Shown here: positions 8,412 through 56,695 of the stretch, one piece after another
Numbering within the stretch: the first letter of the stretch is position 1
How the letters are laid out: each line of letters opens with the position of its first letter
From: Watersipora subatra
Lineage: Eukaryota > Bryozoa > Gymnolaemata > Cheilostomatida > Watersiporidae
Reading direction: 5' to 3'
NCBI RefSeq assembly: GCF_963576615.1
Contig: NC_088709.1
Span: 15,203,264 to 15,267,263, forward strand
Length of the DNA stretch: 64,000 bases
The notes under the pieces: generated by a model
Told to the model about the DNA's origin: nothing
What the model saw: only the letters and a program-made list of their open reading frames with translations
Database searches by the model: none
Made by a program: the position numbers and the translations under genes

Positions 8412-12082
<3,671 letters not shown>

Positions 12083-42066: not shown

Positions 42067-43050
42067 TTAGACATGACTTAAAATAACTAGACGAGATAGT
42101 TTTTGTCTAAGGTTGGTTGAGCTAGATTCCTGCTTTGAAGCGGCATAGTGTTTTCTGATTTTAGTATAGCGATTTACTATAGTTTTGAGTAGATTGCTGG
42201 CATGCACTGTACATGTAAAACCTTGATGGAGGTTATGTAATAAAACATATGTTACTGTCTGTGATGTTACTTGTTTAAAAGCTCTCTGTGTGATACCACA
42301 GCTCTCCATGTGTGAACGTAGGCACTTTTCTGCAGCAATTCATATTCGGCCTATCAATCTGGTCACCAATCCTCCTCTGTTTTTAACTGAGATTAGGGTT
42401 ATGTCACCACTATTTCTACTTCCCACTACTTCGACATCGGTCAAGAACTTGATACGCTCATCACATTTGAGTTAGAAAAAATCCTCATCACCGAACTCCT
42501 CATCTTCACCTTCCTCAGCTTTTGTCTCTTCTTTCTTTTTCTTTCTAGCCAGAGAATGTAGCAGGAGTTGGCCAGTTTTTTCAGCCCTGCTCACATCCAG
42601 ATCAATACAGTTAACATTGGGATTTGGTGTGATATCTGCTTTTATGAACAGTGCTCGAAGTGCAGATCTAAAGCACTGCACATCCGGGTTATTGTTATAG
42701 CCACCCTTAGATCGTATTGTGGAAAACAGAATCTCAATGTGATCCTGGTTGATCTTAAAGGTTAGGAAGTAGTTGATGTAAGGGTAGTTGCTGAAAAGAT
42801 ATTGAGCAATGTCATGTACAGATTTGGCTGCTGACTCAAAACCAATGACGAAATGATGATGATTTTCCTATTATTTTTCACTAGCAGCTTTCAGCTTGGT
42901 GTCTTTAATCGGCATAGATAGCTTATGATATTGTTGAGAACTTCTCGTTTTGAGTTGAAGTTCTGTTTTGTTATGGGCAATTCTGGATATACCTGGGGTG
43001 TTGTGGTCTCTTCTGATGACATTTCACTAAGAATTTGGTCTTATTGTTAT
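42067..43050 (-). pseudogene. P-element (THAP9-like) transposase, C-terminal remnant
   Basis: The minus strand reads VIGFESAAKSVHDIAQYLFS, NYFLTFKINQDHIEILFSTI, RSKGGYNNNPDVQCFRSALR and ADITPNPNVNCIDLD, the part of P-element and THAP9 proteins where 'Y.LTYK.SQDH.E..F..IR..GG.NNNPT..QF' is conserved (RNase H-like C-terminal part). A second block, 42067-42309, ends KIRKHYAASK, then LRQKLSRLVI, like the end of these proteins. The THAP domain and the front of the catalytic domain are not seen, and the frame is interrupted (the block just upstream of VIGF is in another frame), so it is dead. Confidence 0.75.
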
Positions 43051-46000
43051 GTTTATGACTTAAAAACTAGCATGCCAAGCGTGCTTCCACTACTAAACTT
43101 ATTGCTCAATTGAAGGCTTTGATGCTGTGATGCACATCACTACGACGTAACGTCGTGAAAACAACAGCCAATTATAGGCCTCACTTTTACTCCATTGTAA
43201 TGATAGCTATTCGCCAATCTAGGGTTTACTATATCTATGCCGGTATATGTCGGTTATTCAGCTATAGATCTTATAATCTTGAAACTCATATTCCGTACCG
43301 AAGTGGATTCGATCTCGGACCAAGCCGTGCACAAGTCTTACGCCTAGTCCACTGGACCATGGAAGTGAAATTGCTGGTTGACCAATATAAGGCATTATAT
43401 CAGAGCAATACCTAACTGCTTTACGTGTGACGCGGGTCATAGCATAACGTCACGATGAGCTGTTCGCTCACCTGTTCGCTCACCTGTTCGCTCGCTGCCT
43501 AATAGCAAAACTCTCACTACTTCTCATTGTTTATAAGACAAAAAACTTTTCTCATGATATGTAGTTTGAAAGTTAGAATGGCAAATGTTGTAATATGTTA
43601 AATGCAAATCAATTTTCTGTCCAAATACTCTTCTACTACACGGGCAACGCCAGGTGGCACAGCTAGTATCTTATTAAATGCGGTAAAACCCGGAATGAAG
43701 TGAAATATTCACTTGTTTTGTCCTTTTCTTCCTGAACTTATATTAGCTCGAGTTTGTTACACTGAAAACAGTGCACGTGTTTGGGATGAGAGAATTACGC
43801 TACTGATCTTTAATTTCTTCAGTCAGTTTTTTGCTATTATAGCCGATCAACTAAATTGTTTTATTAAAAACCTGAGAACCGATAAGTTTTCTATCAATTC
43901 ATAATGAAACAGCATGGGCCAATAGATAACTTCTTTAAAGGTGAGTAAGAATTAGTGACTGTCATGAATTTAGAGTCTGTATTTACAAAAATAGTGAGTG
44001 ACTGAGCTTATCATATAATAATAATCATGGCGGCTTGGAGATGGGACTGTCTTGTGTCTGGGGTCTGTGTGGACTGTCCATAGGGTTTTTTGACTCACTC
44101 ACATCACAACCTGGAGTCTCCATAGTCATAGAGCACACAGGTTGTGCAGCTAAGCCTACTTTTAATTTCTTACTGAACACAACTCAGGATTTTAAGTTAT
44201 GGAAAACAGCATAATTTAGGGGCATTCGTGCTAAAAAAATTTCGGGGGAGTACCCCTGGACCTCCCTCTACTGAGAAGGGCCACGCCCCTCTCAGACTCA
44301 CCCTGTGAGCGGCAAGCAGGGCCGTTGGCCCTGGACACTACCCTCCTGGCATGACAGAGAGTACCCCCAAGAATCTCTCTCCACTTCAGACACTGCATAT
44401 TCTTAGTTTGTATAGTTGTTGTATAGGCAAAACACGAGATCTTTTAACCAAAGGAGTTGATGGAAAATAAGAGTTTTTATGATATATTATTCTAAGCAAT
44501 CGGTTCTGGATGACCAAAATTTTGTTTAAATAGCTCATTGGAGCATTTCCCCATGCTTCCAAGCAATAAACTATTTTACCGTATTATATATAGCAGTATT
44601 ATATAAAAGCAAAAGAGGCATTTTTGGTAAGATGAGTGAGGCCTGGTAAATAAGTTCCACGCTTTGTCGTAGTGGTTTCCTCAATAGCTCTATGTGACTT
44701 GATCAGTTTAGTGTACTATCTATTGTAACTCCTAAAGATTTTATGCTATCCGTCATTAATATGTTTTCTCCATTCATGGAAATGTTTTTAATTAATCGAA
44801 ATTTATTTTGTGGATTTTGAATAACTATGAAATTAGTCTTGTCAACATTCAATGTTAGTTTGTTTTGATCACACTAATTTTTTATCATGTCTAATTCTTT
44901 GTTTATTATAGTTGTATCTTTAGTTAAATTTTTAGAGGTATAGAATAGTTTAGTATCATCAGCAAACAAAATAGTTTTAAATTTATCAGTACTCTTTACA
45001 AGATCATTTATATATAACAAAAATAGTGTTGGTCCAAGAATGGATCCTTGTGGTACTCCACATTTAATTACTAAAGGTTGGGATAATTCTTGAGATATTA
45101 TAACACTTTGAAGGCGATTAGATAAATAATTTTGTTAAATAAATTAATTCTAAAATCAATTGAGAAAAATTTATTTGCTTTAGCTTATCAATCAAGATGG
45201 ATTGATCTATTGTATCAAAAGCCTTCGAGAAATCAATAAATATATCTAAAACAGATAGACTGTTGTTTAAAGCTGCAAGTGTATTGTTAGCGAACTCTAT
45301 CAATGCTTCATGAGTTACTTTCCCTTTCTGAAATCCAAATTGAGTTTCTGCAATAATGTTTTCTTTAATAGTGCAGTTATGGATTTGTTAGTTAATAAGA
45401 TGCTCAAAAATTTTTGAAAAAACCGGTGGAATAGAACTAGGTCTATAGTTGTTAGATAATAGCTTATTGCCTTTGTTTTTAAATATGGAAAAAACTTTAG
45501 CACATTTTATTTTTTGTGGGAAAAACACATTGCTTTATGCTCATGTTGAATATGTAGGCTAAAGGTTTTGATAACTCAAGTGAACATGCTTTTACTAATT
45601 TTGCGGGAATTCCATCTATGCCGTCAGCTTTGTGTTCATTTAGATTTGCGATAACTTTTTGAACAGTACACTCATGAACTTCTACAATATTAAAATTTGG
45701 GAATTTATTTGTCCCTGAAGCTTGATGCTTTATATTTGTATTAGAAAAAGCTTGCACAAGCCGGGGTCCTATTTCTGTAAAGCAAGTGTTAAATTCTGTA
45801 GCTATTTGATTGACATCAGTTAATTCCTTGGAGTTGGAGTTTAAAAGCATAGTAATTTGTTGAGCTTTACCACGGTTTCGTCCACAAGCATTATTTATTA
45901 AATTCTATAGCTTTCTCAAGTCATTAATTTTTGATATTTCATTACAATAATAATCAGCTTTAGATTTTTTGATAAGGGATGAAACTTTATTTCTAGCTTT

Positions 46001-47156
46001 TATGTAGCTCTTTTTTAAATTAGGACTAAAGGCTCTGTACTTGCCAAACAATCTGTATTTTTTGTGTATCTCCAAAAAAAGCTTTTTGGTCATCCATAAG
46101 TTTTTAAAGCTTTTGAGCTTACAACAAGTTGTTTCCTTTATAGGAGCAATTTGGTCAAAAATTTCTTTAGTTGTGTTTAGAAAGTTATAAGCCAAATCTT
46201 AACTTTCTATCTGGTAAACCAAATTTTCCCAGTCAACCCTGTTCAATAGATACTTTAATTTGTCAGGATTAAAATTTGTATAACTCCGTTTAAGAATTTT
46301 TTCAGACTCGCTCATCAAAGATTTATCAACACAGGCAAATATAGGTTGGTGGTCAGATGTGTCCTTTTCTACTGGGCCACAAACAATATTTAAATAATAA
46401 AAATTAATATATGATCTGCACAAGTAGCCGAATACAGAGTTTTTCGAGTTGGAATATCTATGATAGTTTGGAAATTATACTGGTAAATTAAATCAAGATA
46501 ATCAGCTGAGTCGGTAGACATAGTATTAATATTAAAATCACCAACCCCCTACATGGTCCACCCCCTCACATTAGGAGATGCCATGTACTGGTCTAAATCA
46601 ATTAAGAACTTATCGGTGTCAGCAGATGGAGCACGATATAGAGATGTGATCAAGAGTGGCTTCCCATCAGCCCCGGCAAACCTCAGTGAAATAGACTCTG
46701 CTCCATATATTGACACAGTTGAAGAGTTCAAAACGGCCATGCTACTGAGCACATAGACCCCTGTGCCTCCGCAACGAGATGGACGGCTGTCACCTATAAA
46801 CATGTAATTGGAAATCGGAAAGAATGTGTGTTAATTCCTATTCAAAAAAGTCTCACTTAGGCAAATGTCAAAAGAAAATTTGAATGACACAAGCAACTCT
46901 AAAAGTCGATCAAAATGTATTTTTGATTCGTAACCGCAGACTGTACAGTTGGTTATCTTCGTAAGAGCTGGGGTGGGTAGAGTTTTTACTAGCAGCAGGG
47001 ACTGACTTATCACTCACAGTCAGGCACTTCATTTAATTCTTGCTATCTTTTGATGAGGTCAGTAGCCTCAAGTAGTGTGATGTCCGAGTTCTGTAGAAGC
47101 TTCTCTTTTACCTTTTGATTGTTCATACCTCATACACAGTGACAAAAAATCATCAT

Positions 47157-50075: not shown

Positions 50076-53000
50076 ATGGAAACCTACAATGTACCTGCTA
50101 AAATTGAAGCATTGGAAAGGAAGATTGGCCCGTGTTTGGAGAATATTGAAGAAGAATCGAGCTGGAACCTGGTCAAAAACTACCAGGTTAGTTCATATCA
50201 TTACGCATGACTCAGGCTTGTGCCTTAATTACATGTCAAATATTCAGTATTCAATATTGATTGATCTCACAATGCCATAAGTCTAAATCTATATTAATAC
50301 ATGTACATCCCATTTTGCCATTGTGTGTCTGTTAGTCTGCGTGAACGCAGACGTTTACGCAGACGTAAACGATTGGCATTTCTATTTTTTTGATCGATTC
50401 CATCTAAACTCCACACATAGCCTCTGTGCCTTCCGCTAAGTTGCTTCAAACATCTGGTTTCAAACTAAAGCATAAAGCTGTCATAGAATTACATAAAGCT
50501 GTCTAGAATGACATTATTATTATTATTATTATTATTATGAAAGGCATCAGCAAAATCACATACAGCTGACTAGAATGCCATTATTATTACTATCATAAGT
50601 ATTATGAAAGGCATCAGCAAGATTCGGAATTCATGTTTGCACTTCTGTTTGTGGATAAGTCTCTTATAGCTTGGCTTCTGGCTTTACTTTGCTGTTAGAG
50701 TAGGCTTAGGCAACTAAACATTGTACAGTCAAACCTATATTTCTTATCACACCAGTATATTAGTTGTTCTATGTATGATGTAAGATTCAAGCAGACATTT
50801 TACTCTGTATCCAAAGCAATCTTGGAGGAGGTTATAACCACCTATACATCTGAGCCTATAAATCATCAAACCTACACTGTCATTGTTGTGTATCTATAGC
50901 AGAGTGGTCATAAAACTTATTACTTTATATATTATTATTTTATGAATTTATATCTTTCCGTTTTTACATATAATGCCTTAATGCATTTATTGCCATGTGT
51001 GACTAGCTGAAGGATTTGTTGTTCGATTTTTAAACAAACACAGTACGATGTTTTTGAAATACGATGCAAATCTTGGAACGAGTTAATTTTGTATGTAGAG
51101 ATTTTACTACTTAAAAAGGTTTGTTTGTTTCAGAAAGAAGGCCTTATTATTCATGCAAGACCTTCCGACAAGTTCAGCGGAAAAATGTAAGCATTTTTCT
51201 CGACTCAAGTTTAAACGTTTGTCATTAAAAAAAATCACGGTTTTCATGTTTGTTTGTTATAATACGTACGTACATACGTTTGTACGTATGTTTGTTATAA
51301 TCCTTACATCGATGGCTTATAATTCCCACAACGAAAAATTCCCAATGAAAACTAATGAGCTAATAAAAAATAAAGTCAGTGATTATTTCTTTTGCTTACA
51401 ATTCTTTCTCATACCCACCTTGTGTGCCACGCCTGTCAAAACCATAGATCTCTATTACACCAGCCACCAGTATCAATTCTGCAATCGGAGCCTTTTGACT
51501 GAATTAATGTGTTTGTTTAAAATGATTTGAAATTTAATTGTTTGCAACTTTGGCGAGTGTAACTAGCAGAATATTGTAGTGTGAGAGGAGAAGGCTTGAT
51601 AGAGGCTAGCCCTGAGGAATGTTTTAAACATTGTCATCCTAGACCTGAGTTAACCAGAACACAGTGGGACTCGTCGATTAAAACCCTTGAAATAGCTGAA
51701 ATGATTCAGGACCAGGGGTGGCCGGTAAGTAGGTCATGATGAACCCACTTCCTTTTTAACTGCAAAATCTAAACTTGTTGATGTGTAAAAGTATTTATTT
51801 AGCGTCAGTGTAGGAATCTTTTTGTATTTAAGTGTTTTTGTACCATAATCGGCACAAGTAAATGAGGATATGCTGCCCGCTTATAATCAGTATGAGAAAC
51901 TCATTGTCAGAGATTTTGACTCCTCTCGGATGAAATGACTCCTAAATGGTGTTCCAGTTTACAAGAGCCTTTTGTTGTCAGGAAGTGTACTTATTACGAA
52001 CGACGACCCACAGCGCTGGTATGGGCCTCATATCCCAGAGGGACTTTCTCGACCTCATTATCAATGTTAACAATGATAAAATGGTGGGAACTATGGGTAA
52101 GCAGCTGCAACTGGCTTCCTGTCATGCTCTCCCAGCCCAACAGGCTTGCATTCCCATCCTACCTAGCTCAGCTTTTTTTAGCCTGTTAGCAACTATTCCA
52201 TAGTACTTCTACTACACTCTGTATGAGACTCTATAATACCTGTGGTGCCATAGTACTTCTACTGCACTCTGTATGAGACTCTATAGTACTTGTGGTACCA
52301 TAGTACTCCCACTGCACTCAGTATGAGACTCTATAGTACCTGTGGTGCCATAGTACTTCCACTACACTCAGTGCAAGACTATAGTACCTGTGGTGCCATA
52401 GTACTTCCACTGCACTCTGTATGAGACTCTATAGTACCTGTGGTACCATAGTACTCCCACTGCACTAAGTATGAGACTCTATAGTACCTGTGTTGCCATA
52501 GTACTCCCACTGCACTCAGTATGAAACTCTATAGTACCTGTGGTGCCATAGTACTCCCACTGCACTCAGTATGAGACTCTATAGTACCTATGGTGCCATA
52601 GTACTCCCACTGCACTCAGTATGAGACTCTATAGTACCTGTGGTGCCATAGTACTCTCACTACACTTGGTATGAGACTCTATTGTACCTGTGGTGCCATA
52701 GTACTTCCCCTAAACTCAGTGCAAGACTCTATAGTACCTGTAGTGCCATAGTACATCAACTATACTCAGTTTGGGACTTTATAGTACCTGTGGTGCCTTA
52801 GACTTGCTGCTAAACTCTTAAGCACTTAGGCACTTACTGCCTTTTATTCAAACTTTGGAAGTGCATAAATTCATCCATACCGACGTCAACTGAAAATTAA
52901 TGAATAGAGGGATGTTGAGAAATCATCGTATTGTCGATACATGAAATTAATAGCGCTTGCATTTTATTTCTGTCAAAGCATATTCATTGCAAATGTTCTC

Positions 53001-54361
53001 AGTTTTCCTCTCGCTTCATTTCCTGCTAGAATGCTCAGTTAGTATTGAGTAGCACTTTATCAAATGAAAGACATAATTTATTATACTAGCAGTGGTATCC
53101 TAGTTCTGCCCTCTGCATGAAAATTTACTATCCATAAGATGCGATGAACTCTGTACTATGCATTTGTGTGCCCCGATTAACTACAACAACAGAGAGGCAA
53201 GGTTCATTTGCGGATAGGTTGGCAGCTGCTTGTCACTCACTTAACAAACTTTGTGAAGGTTTCATAGGGCTGTATAATAATTTTAATTTTGAGTATTAAA
53301 GTGAAAGAGTGGTTGAAACTCTCCTAAAAGATTTCAGTGTTCACCTGGAACTCCATGATAGCGAGCTTCTGGCGGAAATTGCATAATAATTACTATTGTA
53401 CCTGACAGTATAATCACTGAGAAATGAATGTTATTATTGTACAAGTAACTCTGATGATAGTCATTGAGAAATTATTGTATTGTATTATTGTAAGTTATCA
53501 GTACTACTGCAAATGAGAGTATAACCATTGAAAACCTGGTTTTATTATTTTAGCTGAGAGTATAGTCAGTGTGAAGTTACTTTTACTGTTTTAGCTGAGA
53601 GTATAGTCAGTGTGAAGTTAGTTTTATTATTTTAGCTGAGAGTATAGCCAGTGAAAAGTGTCCACCACATAAAGATTATGTTAGAGGAACAAACCACTAT
53701 TGTGGCATACTTTGTTGCAGGCTGCCTGGGTAAGTGAGTTCATTTGTCCTCTTTTTGCCGTAGTATTGCTGTCTGTACAGGATGTGCATTGACCTGTTTT
53801 TGTTACTCTGTTCATTTTCAGTCATTTACAAATTTTATGATCAGCTGCCACTTTGGTTTACTGATTACCTTTGCTCAAATATTTTATTGTCTTTAAGAAG
53901 TTATCATTCCTTTAAAGGGTATTGTTTTCTTTCAATTGCTGGCCAATGACAATAAGAGTGTTATTTTTATATTAAATTGCTAAACAATTATTTTATTCCA
54001 ACATGGGATTGTTTTAATTTTGATTTATAATTTTTTTACCTTAAATGTGGAATTTCTGTTATAGGAGCGTCTACCGTATTTTACTCCTAACCATTTTTAG
54101 TGCCCCCTGGTGTGATGACTTATGACCTATTTAACAAGCTGGCTAATATAACCCTCAAAACTCAGCATACTGTTATATATAAAGTTTTCTGTTATAAATA
54201 AAGTTTTCTTTTATACTTGCAGCGAGCCCAACAGAACAAGACTAGTCTATATTGCACACTCGGAGATCGGGGGTCGCCTTCCTGTATCAGTTGTCAATGC
54301 TGCTGTGCCAAATGCCATTTATAATTTTTATGCTGCCCTCAAAAAGCAGGTAGCCAAGTAA
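50076..54361 (+). CDS. STARD5: STARD5-type START-domain lipid-transfer protein, six exons
   Basis: Exons 50076-50186, 51134-51186, 51580-51724, 51958-52096, 53636-53729 and 54223-54361 join in phase to about 226 residues with GT/AG introns. The protein follows human STARD5 (213 aa): the start METYNVPAKIEALERKIGPC; VRGEGLIEASPEECF (human YRGEGIVYGTLEEVW); RTQWDSSIKTLEI (VKWDENVTGFEI); RTTTHSAGMGLISQRDFLDL (SRTSTPSAAMKLISPRDFVDL); CPPHKDYVRGTNHYCG (CPPKPGFVRGFNHPCG); GEPNRTRLVYIAHSEIGGRL to the end. The whole protein is one START domain with no targeting sequence, as in the soluble STARD4/5/6 group, which carries sterols or bile acids in the cytosol. The start ATG gives an N-terminus of normal length. 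STARD4 and STARD6 are related, but the RDF..L and VRG.NH text is closest to STARD5. AATAAA lies at 54717 and 54783. Confidence 0.93.
50482..50625. repeat. ATT microsatellite and ~80-bp duplication in STARD5 intron 1
   Basis: TTATGAAAGGCATCAGCAA occurs twice (about 50534 and 50598), each after CTAGAATGMCATTATTATTA. The first copy has an expanded ATT run at 50514-50538. Confidence 0.8.
52199..52800. repeat. 50-bp minisatellite (~12 copies) in STARD5 intron 4
   Basis: Tandem units of CCATAGTACTYCYACTRCAC, TCWGTATGAGACTCTATAGT, ACCTGTGGTG. The array starts about 100 bp after the exon-4 donor. Unit length is almost constant; the central units (about 52440-52650) are the most alike and the edges are the most diverged. 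Confidence 0.97.
53400..53660. repeat. 41-bp tandem repeat carrying the exon-5 3' splice site of STARD5
   Basis: Three consecutive TTTTAG|CTGAGAGTATAG junctions occur with the base after AG at 53554, 53595 and 53636, each 41 bp apart. Each unit holds the first ~20 exon bases followed by a new pyrimidine-rich intron end. Older, decayed copies (GACAGTATAATCACTGAG, GATGATAGTCATTGAGAA, GAGAGTATAACCATTGAA) extend upstream to about 53400. Only the last copy leads into an open exon. Confidence 0.92.
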
Positions 54362-55839: not shown

Positions 55840-55985
55840 CTAAATGTAACGCATACTATAACAGTTTCCTTCTTAGAACGATAAGTCGATAAGAGATATA
55901 AAGTTTAGCGATGTGTCCAGCTGGTGATAAATTTAACTCGTAATTGTAAATACTTCTTAGGAGTATACATTGGTTACATCTTACA
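55840..55985 (+). mobile_element. Short LINE C-terminal fragment, opposite orientation
   Basis: Plus-strand NAYYNSFLLRTISR resembles the HNSFLPRTIRD end of the two neighbouring minus-strand LINE fragments. Only about 20 codons are recognisable. Confidence 0.35.
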
Positions 55986-56695
55986 TCTTCTTCATAGAAC
56001 GTACTAGAGCGGGTTGCGGCAAGCGGCACGCCTCATATGTTGAGCAGTTGTTAACACTAGATAATATTGTAATATATTGCCATATTAGCAAATAATTGTT
56101 TATTGTTGATGTGATGTACAGTTTTTTAAATTCACGAACAGTCTTTGGTAAAAAGCTGTTGTGATAAACAGACGTTCTTGCATATATAGTAGGAGGATCG
56201 CCTCTTCCAGCAGCTCGCGTGACAGTCGTACTAACTCGGTCCTGCATTAATTCATCATAGGTGGTAATTAATGAGTTGTGATTCTTGTCAGAGGAGAGGA
56301 GTCGCATTAGCAGATTTTGTCTACTGACCTTCCGTCTTTCACATAGTGTTTGCATATTTAAAGTATCTAAAGCTTTGGTGATGCTATCTCTTCCTTTCAG
56401 TTTACATATAAAACGTAGTGCGTTGTTTTGCACCATTTCAAGTTCATGTTGTAGTAGCTTAGTAGAAGGGTCCCACACAGTGGAGGCATACTCAATATGT
56501 GGCCTGCAAAGACTAGTATATGCTAAGAGTTTGGCCTTTTCAGGAGCTTCATATAGCACACGCTTAATCATGCCTAACTGCTGTCTCGCCCTTCTGGCTT
56601 TGGAGTCTATATGTTTGTCAAACTTCAGGTTAGATTGTAGGATAACACCTAGGTATTTGGTTTCTTCAACTATTTCTAATTATATGGTTATTTCT
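55975..56695 (-). mobile_element. 5'-truncated CR1/Jockey-group LINE
   Basis: The minus strand encodes VEETKYLGVILQSNLKFDKH, then ARRARQQLGMIKRVLYEAPE, LCRPHIEYASTVWDPSTKLL, ELEMVQNNALRFICKLKGRD and YHNSFLPKTVREF, the thumb and C-terminal part of a non-LTR reverse transcriptase. The main frame (55981-56571 and its upstream continuation) is open over some 230 codons, so this copy is young compared with the one at 45 kb. The catalytic YADD region and everything upstream are missing, the usual 5' truncation. Confidence 0.88.

Follow-up and report, generated by a model that had tools for sequence, protein, structure and literature searches.

Mirages are minisatellite-like tandem duplications of exon-intron boundaries, described from amphioxus in the genes Adh3, BflGb6 and BflGb9 (PMC3087553, accessible portion of the report). 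In BflGb6, the 3' end of an intron and the 5' part of the next exon are duplicated together; haplotypes with six and with three units are on record, and the edges of the cluster are excluded from homogenisation (PMC3087553). AG/GT signals occur in many, not all, of the amphioxus copies, and the authors noted that such copies could serve as cryptic sites; RT-PCR of the globin mirages suggested that regular splicing is undisturbed (PMC3087553). PGBD5 and TnC were added as lancelet cases, with repeats whose copy number differs between two sequence versions and for which accurate splicing was suggested, in the case of PGBD5 as the authors' inference (PMC3902484, accessible portion). In a lancelet gene model of PGBD5, repeat copies are annotated as an exon without RNA support, and a predicted extra exon in one PGBD5 array was left out by the authors (PMC3902484). 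Across the accessible portions of both reports, undisturbed splicing was inferred for Adh3 and the globin genes and reported for Adh and TnC, and the known mirage cases are cephalochordate (PMC3087553, PMC3902484). In C. elegans, a link between minisatellites in introns and alternative splicing has also been reported (PMC4039745).

Here we describe a 41-bp tandem array that lies over the acceptor between intron 4 and exon 5 of a STARD5-like animal gene, whose product is a lipid-carrying protein, within a window of 64,000 nucleotides (the whole stretch of DNA that was analysed). With a probability of roughly 0.7, we read it as a minisatellite that has expanded over the acceptor end of intron 4, that is, as a mirage. 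A minisatellite would then have spread over a splice junction in a gene that the accessible portions of PMC3087553 and PMC3902484 do not list as such a case and, if the source of the DNA is not a lancelet, mirages would occur outside the cephalochordates. The locus is also a clean natural setting in which to study how the spliceosome chooses between three consecutive acceptors that are almost the same. Should the decoys be in use, the number of repeats would act as a simple dial on gene output. A parallel closer than the amphioxus and lancelet cases was not found in the literature among the matches listed.

The STARD5-like gene and its 41-bp array

The coding part of the gene lies on the plus strand at 50076-54361 and consists of six exons (50076-50186, 51134-51186, 51580-51724, 51982-52096, 53636-53729 and 54223-54361) that form an open frame and yield a product of 218 amino acids. 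All five introns have GT..AG borders, intron 4 is a phase-1 intron that follows the last base of exon 4 at 52096, and exon 1 opens on a putative start codon that may be preceded by additional exons. The product contains a START domain (Pfam PF01852, E 1.9e-15), and its best match among solved structures is human STARD5 (2r55, E 7e-34), with weaker matches to STARD6 (7.3e-23) and to the best STARD4 (3.9e-21). We therefore call the gene STARD5-like, STARD5 being matched ahead of both STARD4 and STARD6. A preliminary description had named the gene STARD5 and had given the intron phase, the authentic site and the stop arithmetic discussed below; the reading frames and the structure alignment agree with it on all of these points.

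Tandem Repeats Finder places the array at 53540-53653 on the plus strand (2.8 copies, 91% matches, no indels, score 200). Within it, the 3' splice site occurs three times in nearly the same form, at a spacing of exactly 41 bp, and the corresponding exon starts are 53554, 53595 and 53636. The first two belong to decoy acceptors, in copies termed c4 (53540-53580) and c5 (53581-53621), and the third to the authentic acceptor of exon 5, in copy c6 (53622-53653). The repeated stretch comprises roughly the last 14 intronic bases, including the AG, and roughly the first 24 bases of exon 5. Identity is 38/41 between c4 and c5, 36/41 between c4 and c6 and 33/41 between c5 and c6, which corresponds to 3, 5 and 8 differing positions, and the most alike pair is thus that of the intronic neighbours. 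The junction 18-mer TTTTAGCTGAGAGTATAG matches the window three times when up to three mismatches are allowed, and all three matches are exact and fall in the array; the chance expectation has a mean of 0.09, and three matches were reached in 0 of 100 shuffles. Both the repeat finder and the 18-mer matches bear out the three acceptor positions and the 41-bp period that had first been proposed.

On both strands of the window outside 53300-53730, no half-overlapping segment scored above 23 against the unit, where the decayed copy c1 described below scores 33, so that a dispersed family was not detected there. A search of GTDB prokaryote genomes returned 50 pattern stretches, none of which was confirmed as a relative, an outcome to be expected with a gene from an animal; a Miniphocaeibacter contig contains one exact 18-mer, which is regarded as chance. 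A search of viral contigs gave no matches, nor did Rfam (at the gathering threshold) or tRNA scans of the whole window.

The array fits the two defining mirage features that were fully tested. Its tandem unit spans an exon-intron boundary, and splice signals are present in many but not all copies, AG being found in two of the five intronic ones (c4 and c5). Like the amphioxus mirages, it places tandem units over a splice boundary, with signals in many copies and the authentic copy at the edge (PMC3087553). As in BflGb6, the end of an intron is repeated together with the beginning of the exon that follows it (PMC3087553). The two intronic neighbours are the most alike (38/41 against 36/41 and 33/41), which may recall the homogenisation of inner copies with the edge left out in BflGb6, three copies being too few for a judgement (PMC3087553). 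The 41-bp unit lies within the 10-72 bp range of Adh3, whereas the units of BflGb6 and BflGb9 measure about 150-160 bp (PMC3087553). The present case differs further in affecting a STARD5-like gene, possibly of another species, and in having three decayed outer copies without AG; and while length variation and RT-PCR are reported for the amphioxus mirages, this array is known from one sequence (PMC3087553).

Other described systems share some of these properties. In PGBD5 and TnC, too, splice sites coincide with imperfect tandem repeats or are overlapped by them (60 and 108 bp), but both PGBD5 arrays are described as abutting sites named as 5' splice sites (PMC3902484, accessible portion), whereas three full acceptors follow one another here. 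Several 3' splice sites in a row also characterise NAGNAG and wider tandem sites, which are NMD-sensitive if frame-disrupting (PMC8055015, accessible portion); unlike these, the sites described here repeat a single junction at intervals of 41 bp. Intron gain by tandem genomic duplication resembles the array in that sequence is tandemly duplicated within a gene (PMC4974935, accessible portion); in contrast to that process, a new intron is not indicated at this locus, no passing donor-like site lying between the three acceptors.

Decayed copies upstream of the array

Upstream of c4, three further segments of the plus strand resemble the unit. The farthest, c1 (53384-53428), has its junction equivalent at 53402, where AC replaces the acceptor AG; it matches c4 at 29/41 positions, and its local score against the unit, 33, was equalled or exceeded in none of 1000 shuffles and in none of 5772 other segments of the window. 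The second, c2 (53429-53474), has AA in place of AG at 53449, matches c4 at 25/41 and is marginal, with a score of 21 that 13 of 1000 shuffles and 17 of 5520 segments of the window equal or exceed. The nearest, c3 (53480-53539), also has AA in place of AG, at 53513, and matches c4 at 23/41 and c6 at 25/41; its score of 20 is marginal alone, since 9 of 1000 shuffles and 28 of 4232 segments of the window do at least as well, but its junction equivalent falls exactly 41 bp before that of c4, in register with the array. AG is thus found at the junction equivalent in none of the three decayed copies. The existence of older upstream copies, as the preliminary description had it, is therefore clear for c1, while c2 and c3 taken singly are marginal.

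The same description had seen in these copies a gradient of decay, and this is absent. Ungapped identity to the first decoy c4 over 41 columns drops toward the exon, from 71% in c1 through 61% in c2 to 56% in c3, so that the farthest copy is the best preserved and the gradient must be rejected. The spacing of the old copies is irregular as well (47, 64 and then 41 bp between junction positions), and in all three the exonic part is better kept relative to c4 (67-79%) than the intronic part (43-64%). Of the proposal of slippage-type growth at the junction, repeat growth is kept as the best reading; the gradient offered as its sign is not. The lack of AG in c1-c3 is a point against the mirage reading, as the oldest units may never have contained a splice site.

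A donor-like sequence, ATT/GTAAGT, lies amid the decayed copies at 53487-53495, and would define an intron of 64 nt if joined to the acceptor of c4. On a donor matrix it scores 3.0, against 3.3-6.4 for the five real donors of the gene.

Decoy acceptors and their reading frames

In sequence, the decoys match the real site in quality, and no scored feature marks them as dead. The last 14 intronic bases of c6 recur at 14/14 positions in c4 and at 12/14 in c5, and pyrimidine content from -20 to -4 is 71% in c4, 71% in c5 and 65% in c6. The AG-free stretch upstream is longest in c4 (32 nt), followed by c5 (16) and c6 (12), with 13, 8, 12 and 17 nt at the four other acceptors of the gene. The stretch of c6 is as short as 12 nt because of an extra AG in GTTAG at 53617-53621, which ends 14 bases before the authentic intron end and whose equivalent before the c5 acceptor is GTTAC. 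A first-AG scanning model would favour 53554, and it weighs against mostly normal splicing that the sequence offers the spliceosome no cause to pass over that site. Minor acceptors at human tandem sites are, as a tendency, used more when they lie upstream than when they lie downstream (PMC8055015, accessible portion), which may also hold at the distances of 41 and 82 nt found here and would be a further point against it.

Two other ways in which the decoys might be handled were tried and rejected. The fold of 53500-53680 is ordinary (z -0.93; an equal or better fold in 33 of 200 shuffles), which speaks against concealment of the decoys by RNA structure. For the decoys to act as cassette exons, a donor would be needed among the three acceptors; GT sites at 53301-53740 were scored with a donor matrix and a cut of 2, and the three that pass (exon ends 53489, 53729, which is the real one, and 53733) all lie elsewhere. 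Branch-point motifs (yTnAy) proved useless for ranking, none being found in the scanned range for c4 or for the real acceptor of exon 6.

Only 53636, among the three sites, continues into the conserved CPP..VRG..NH.CG part of the START domain, and its use adds no residues relative to human STARD5. In the alignments with STARD5 and STARD6 this protein has no added residues and each target has one more; in that with STARD4 it is two residues longer, which the aligner placed before the junction. Splicing from exon 4 to 53554 or 53595, as translation bears out from phase 1, gives 13 further codons before the acceptor TAG of the following copy closes the frame, for a product of 154 amino acids. For 53554 this stop is the acceptor TAG of c5 (53592-53594, plus strand, 135 nt before the end of exon 5), and for 53595 that of c6 (53633-53635, plus strand, 94 nt before it). 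The preliminary description spoke of a stop built into each decoy; the stop is there, but it is one property counted twice. Wherever the acceptor ends in TAG, the intron is in phase 1 and the period equals 2 modulo 3, every upstream copy stops at the next acceptor, so that the in-frame stop follows from these three facts and selection is not needed. Before the end of exon 5 and including the acceptor TAG, the 53554 frame holds eight stops and the 53595 frame two; with seven more and one more, respectively, a frame-shifting decoy would be unproductive anyway. NMD acts on stops that precede the last exon junction by over 50-55 nt, and both decoy stops lie farther than this from the exon 5/6 junction. 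It is possible, on the basis of these positions, that decoy use could lower STARD5 output through NMD.

Explanations for the array and neighbouring features

On the mirage reading, a minisatellite would have grown over the junction by slippage or unequal exchange, with the start of exon 5 as the probable source of the intronic copies. Exon 5 retains the last copy, the sole one of the three giving the START domain; the two youngest intronic copies still resemble complete 3' splice sites, and the three older ones lack the AG. Splicing would be expected to go mostly to the last site, 53636, and low-level use of the decoys may be splicing noise, its transcripts cleared by NMD or yielding the truncated protein of 154 amino acids. 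The structure is unusual, yet like the amphioxus cases, and probably mostly harmless. In favour of this reading, minisatellites are common in the window: six arrays with a period of at least 25 and a score of at least 200, picked by hand from the tandem-repeat list of the window and including the 41-bp array, cover 2.7% of the window, and under random placement one or more of the gene's 10 splice sites would fall within such an array with a chance of 24%.

The direction of growth may instead have been the reverse, with an intronic minisatellite arising first and its last unit replacing the start of exon 5, which we hold to be quite unlikely. In its favour, the lack of AG in the three old copies would accord with a splice site new to the family, and AESIASEK has little similarity to the aligned human ATHVEHPL. 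Exon 5 nevertheless begins without added residues relative to STARD5 and STARD6, and the two extra residues relative to STARD4 were placed before the junction; this conserved exon length, together with an exonic part of c3 that is closer to the exon copy c6 (19/24) than to c4 and c5 (16/24), argues for the exon as the source. The exonic part of c1 points the opposite way (18/24 with c6, 19/24 with c4). That the extra copies stem from mis-assembly seems highly improbable: the amphioxus draft genome did contain an aberrant assembly of one globin mirage (PMC3087553, accessible portion), but the copies here differ from each other at several positions, and an array of just 114 bp should be spanned by a read of ordinary length.

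A different question is whether the decoys serve as an attenuator, taking a substantial share of exon 4 splicing into transcripts that NMD destroys, so that copy number would set STARD5 output. The decoys match the real site in sequence strength, both stops lie far enough upstream, human frame-disrupting tandem sites increase on NMD knock-down (PMC8055015), and in C. elegans the intronic minisatellite CeRep25B shows enrichment next to the alternate exons of some genes (PMC4039745). We nonetheless consider such a role unlikely, since the stop that would make it work arises automatically and the authors of the amphioxus and lancelet reports inferred undisturbed splicing for mirages (PMC3087553, PMC3902484, accessible portions). 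The tunable form of this idea, in which the number of TAG-ended acceptors, each poisoned by the next, would set the productive share and repeat-number variation would change the STARD5 level between individuals, we regard as very unlikely.

Intron 4 contains another of the six arrays counted above, a minisatellite with a 50-bp unit, at 52198-52805 (12.2 copies, 88% matches). A relationship between the two units was rejected, as their best local score of 13 was reached by 175 of 1000 shuffled units. A 19-bp repeat of 2.4 copies at 54170-54215 leaves seven bases before exon 6, and two acceptors of the gene therefore have tandem repeats on or beside them.

Elsewhere in the window, protein kinase exons at 8784-12082, which we take to be NUAK-like, contain Pfam Pkinase matches at 8784-9092 (E 1.7e-05, below the curated cut-off) and 11375-12079 (E 2.2e-09, above it), and a 154-bp tandem duplication at 10102-10387 is read as lying within an intron of the kinase gene. 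Minus-strand open frames at 45497-46830 and 55981-56679 presumably represent pieces of LINE retrotransposons; a Pfam scan of three of the five LINE-like open frames gave no match at E 0.01. A transposase remnant with a TNP-like RNase H C-terminal domain (E 6.5e-13) lies on the minus strand at 42475-42867.
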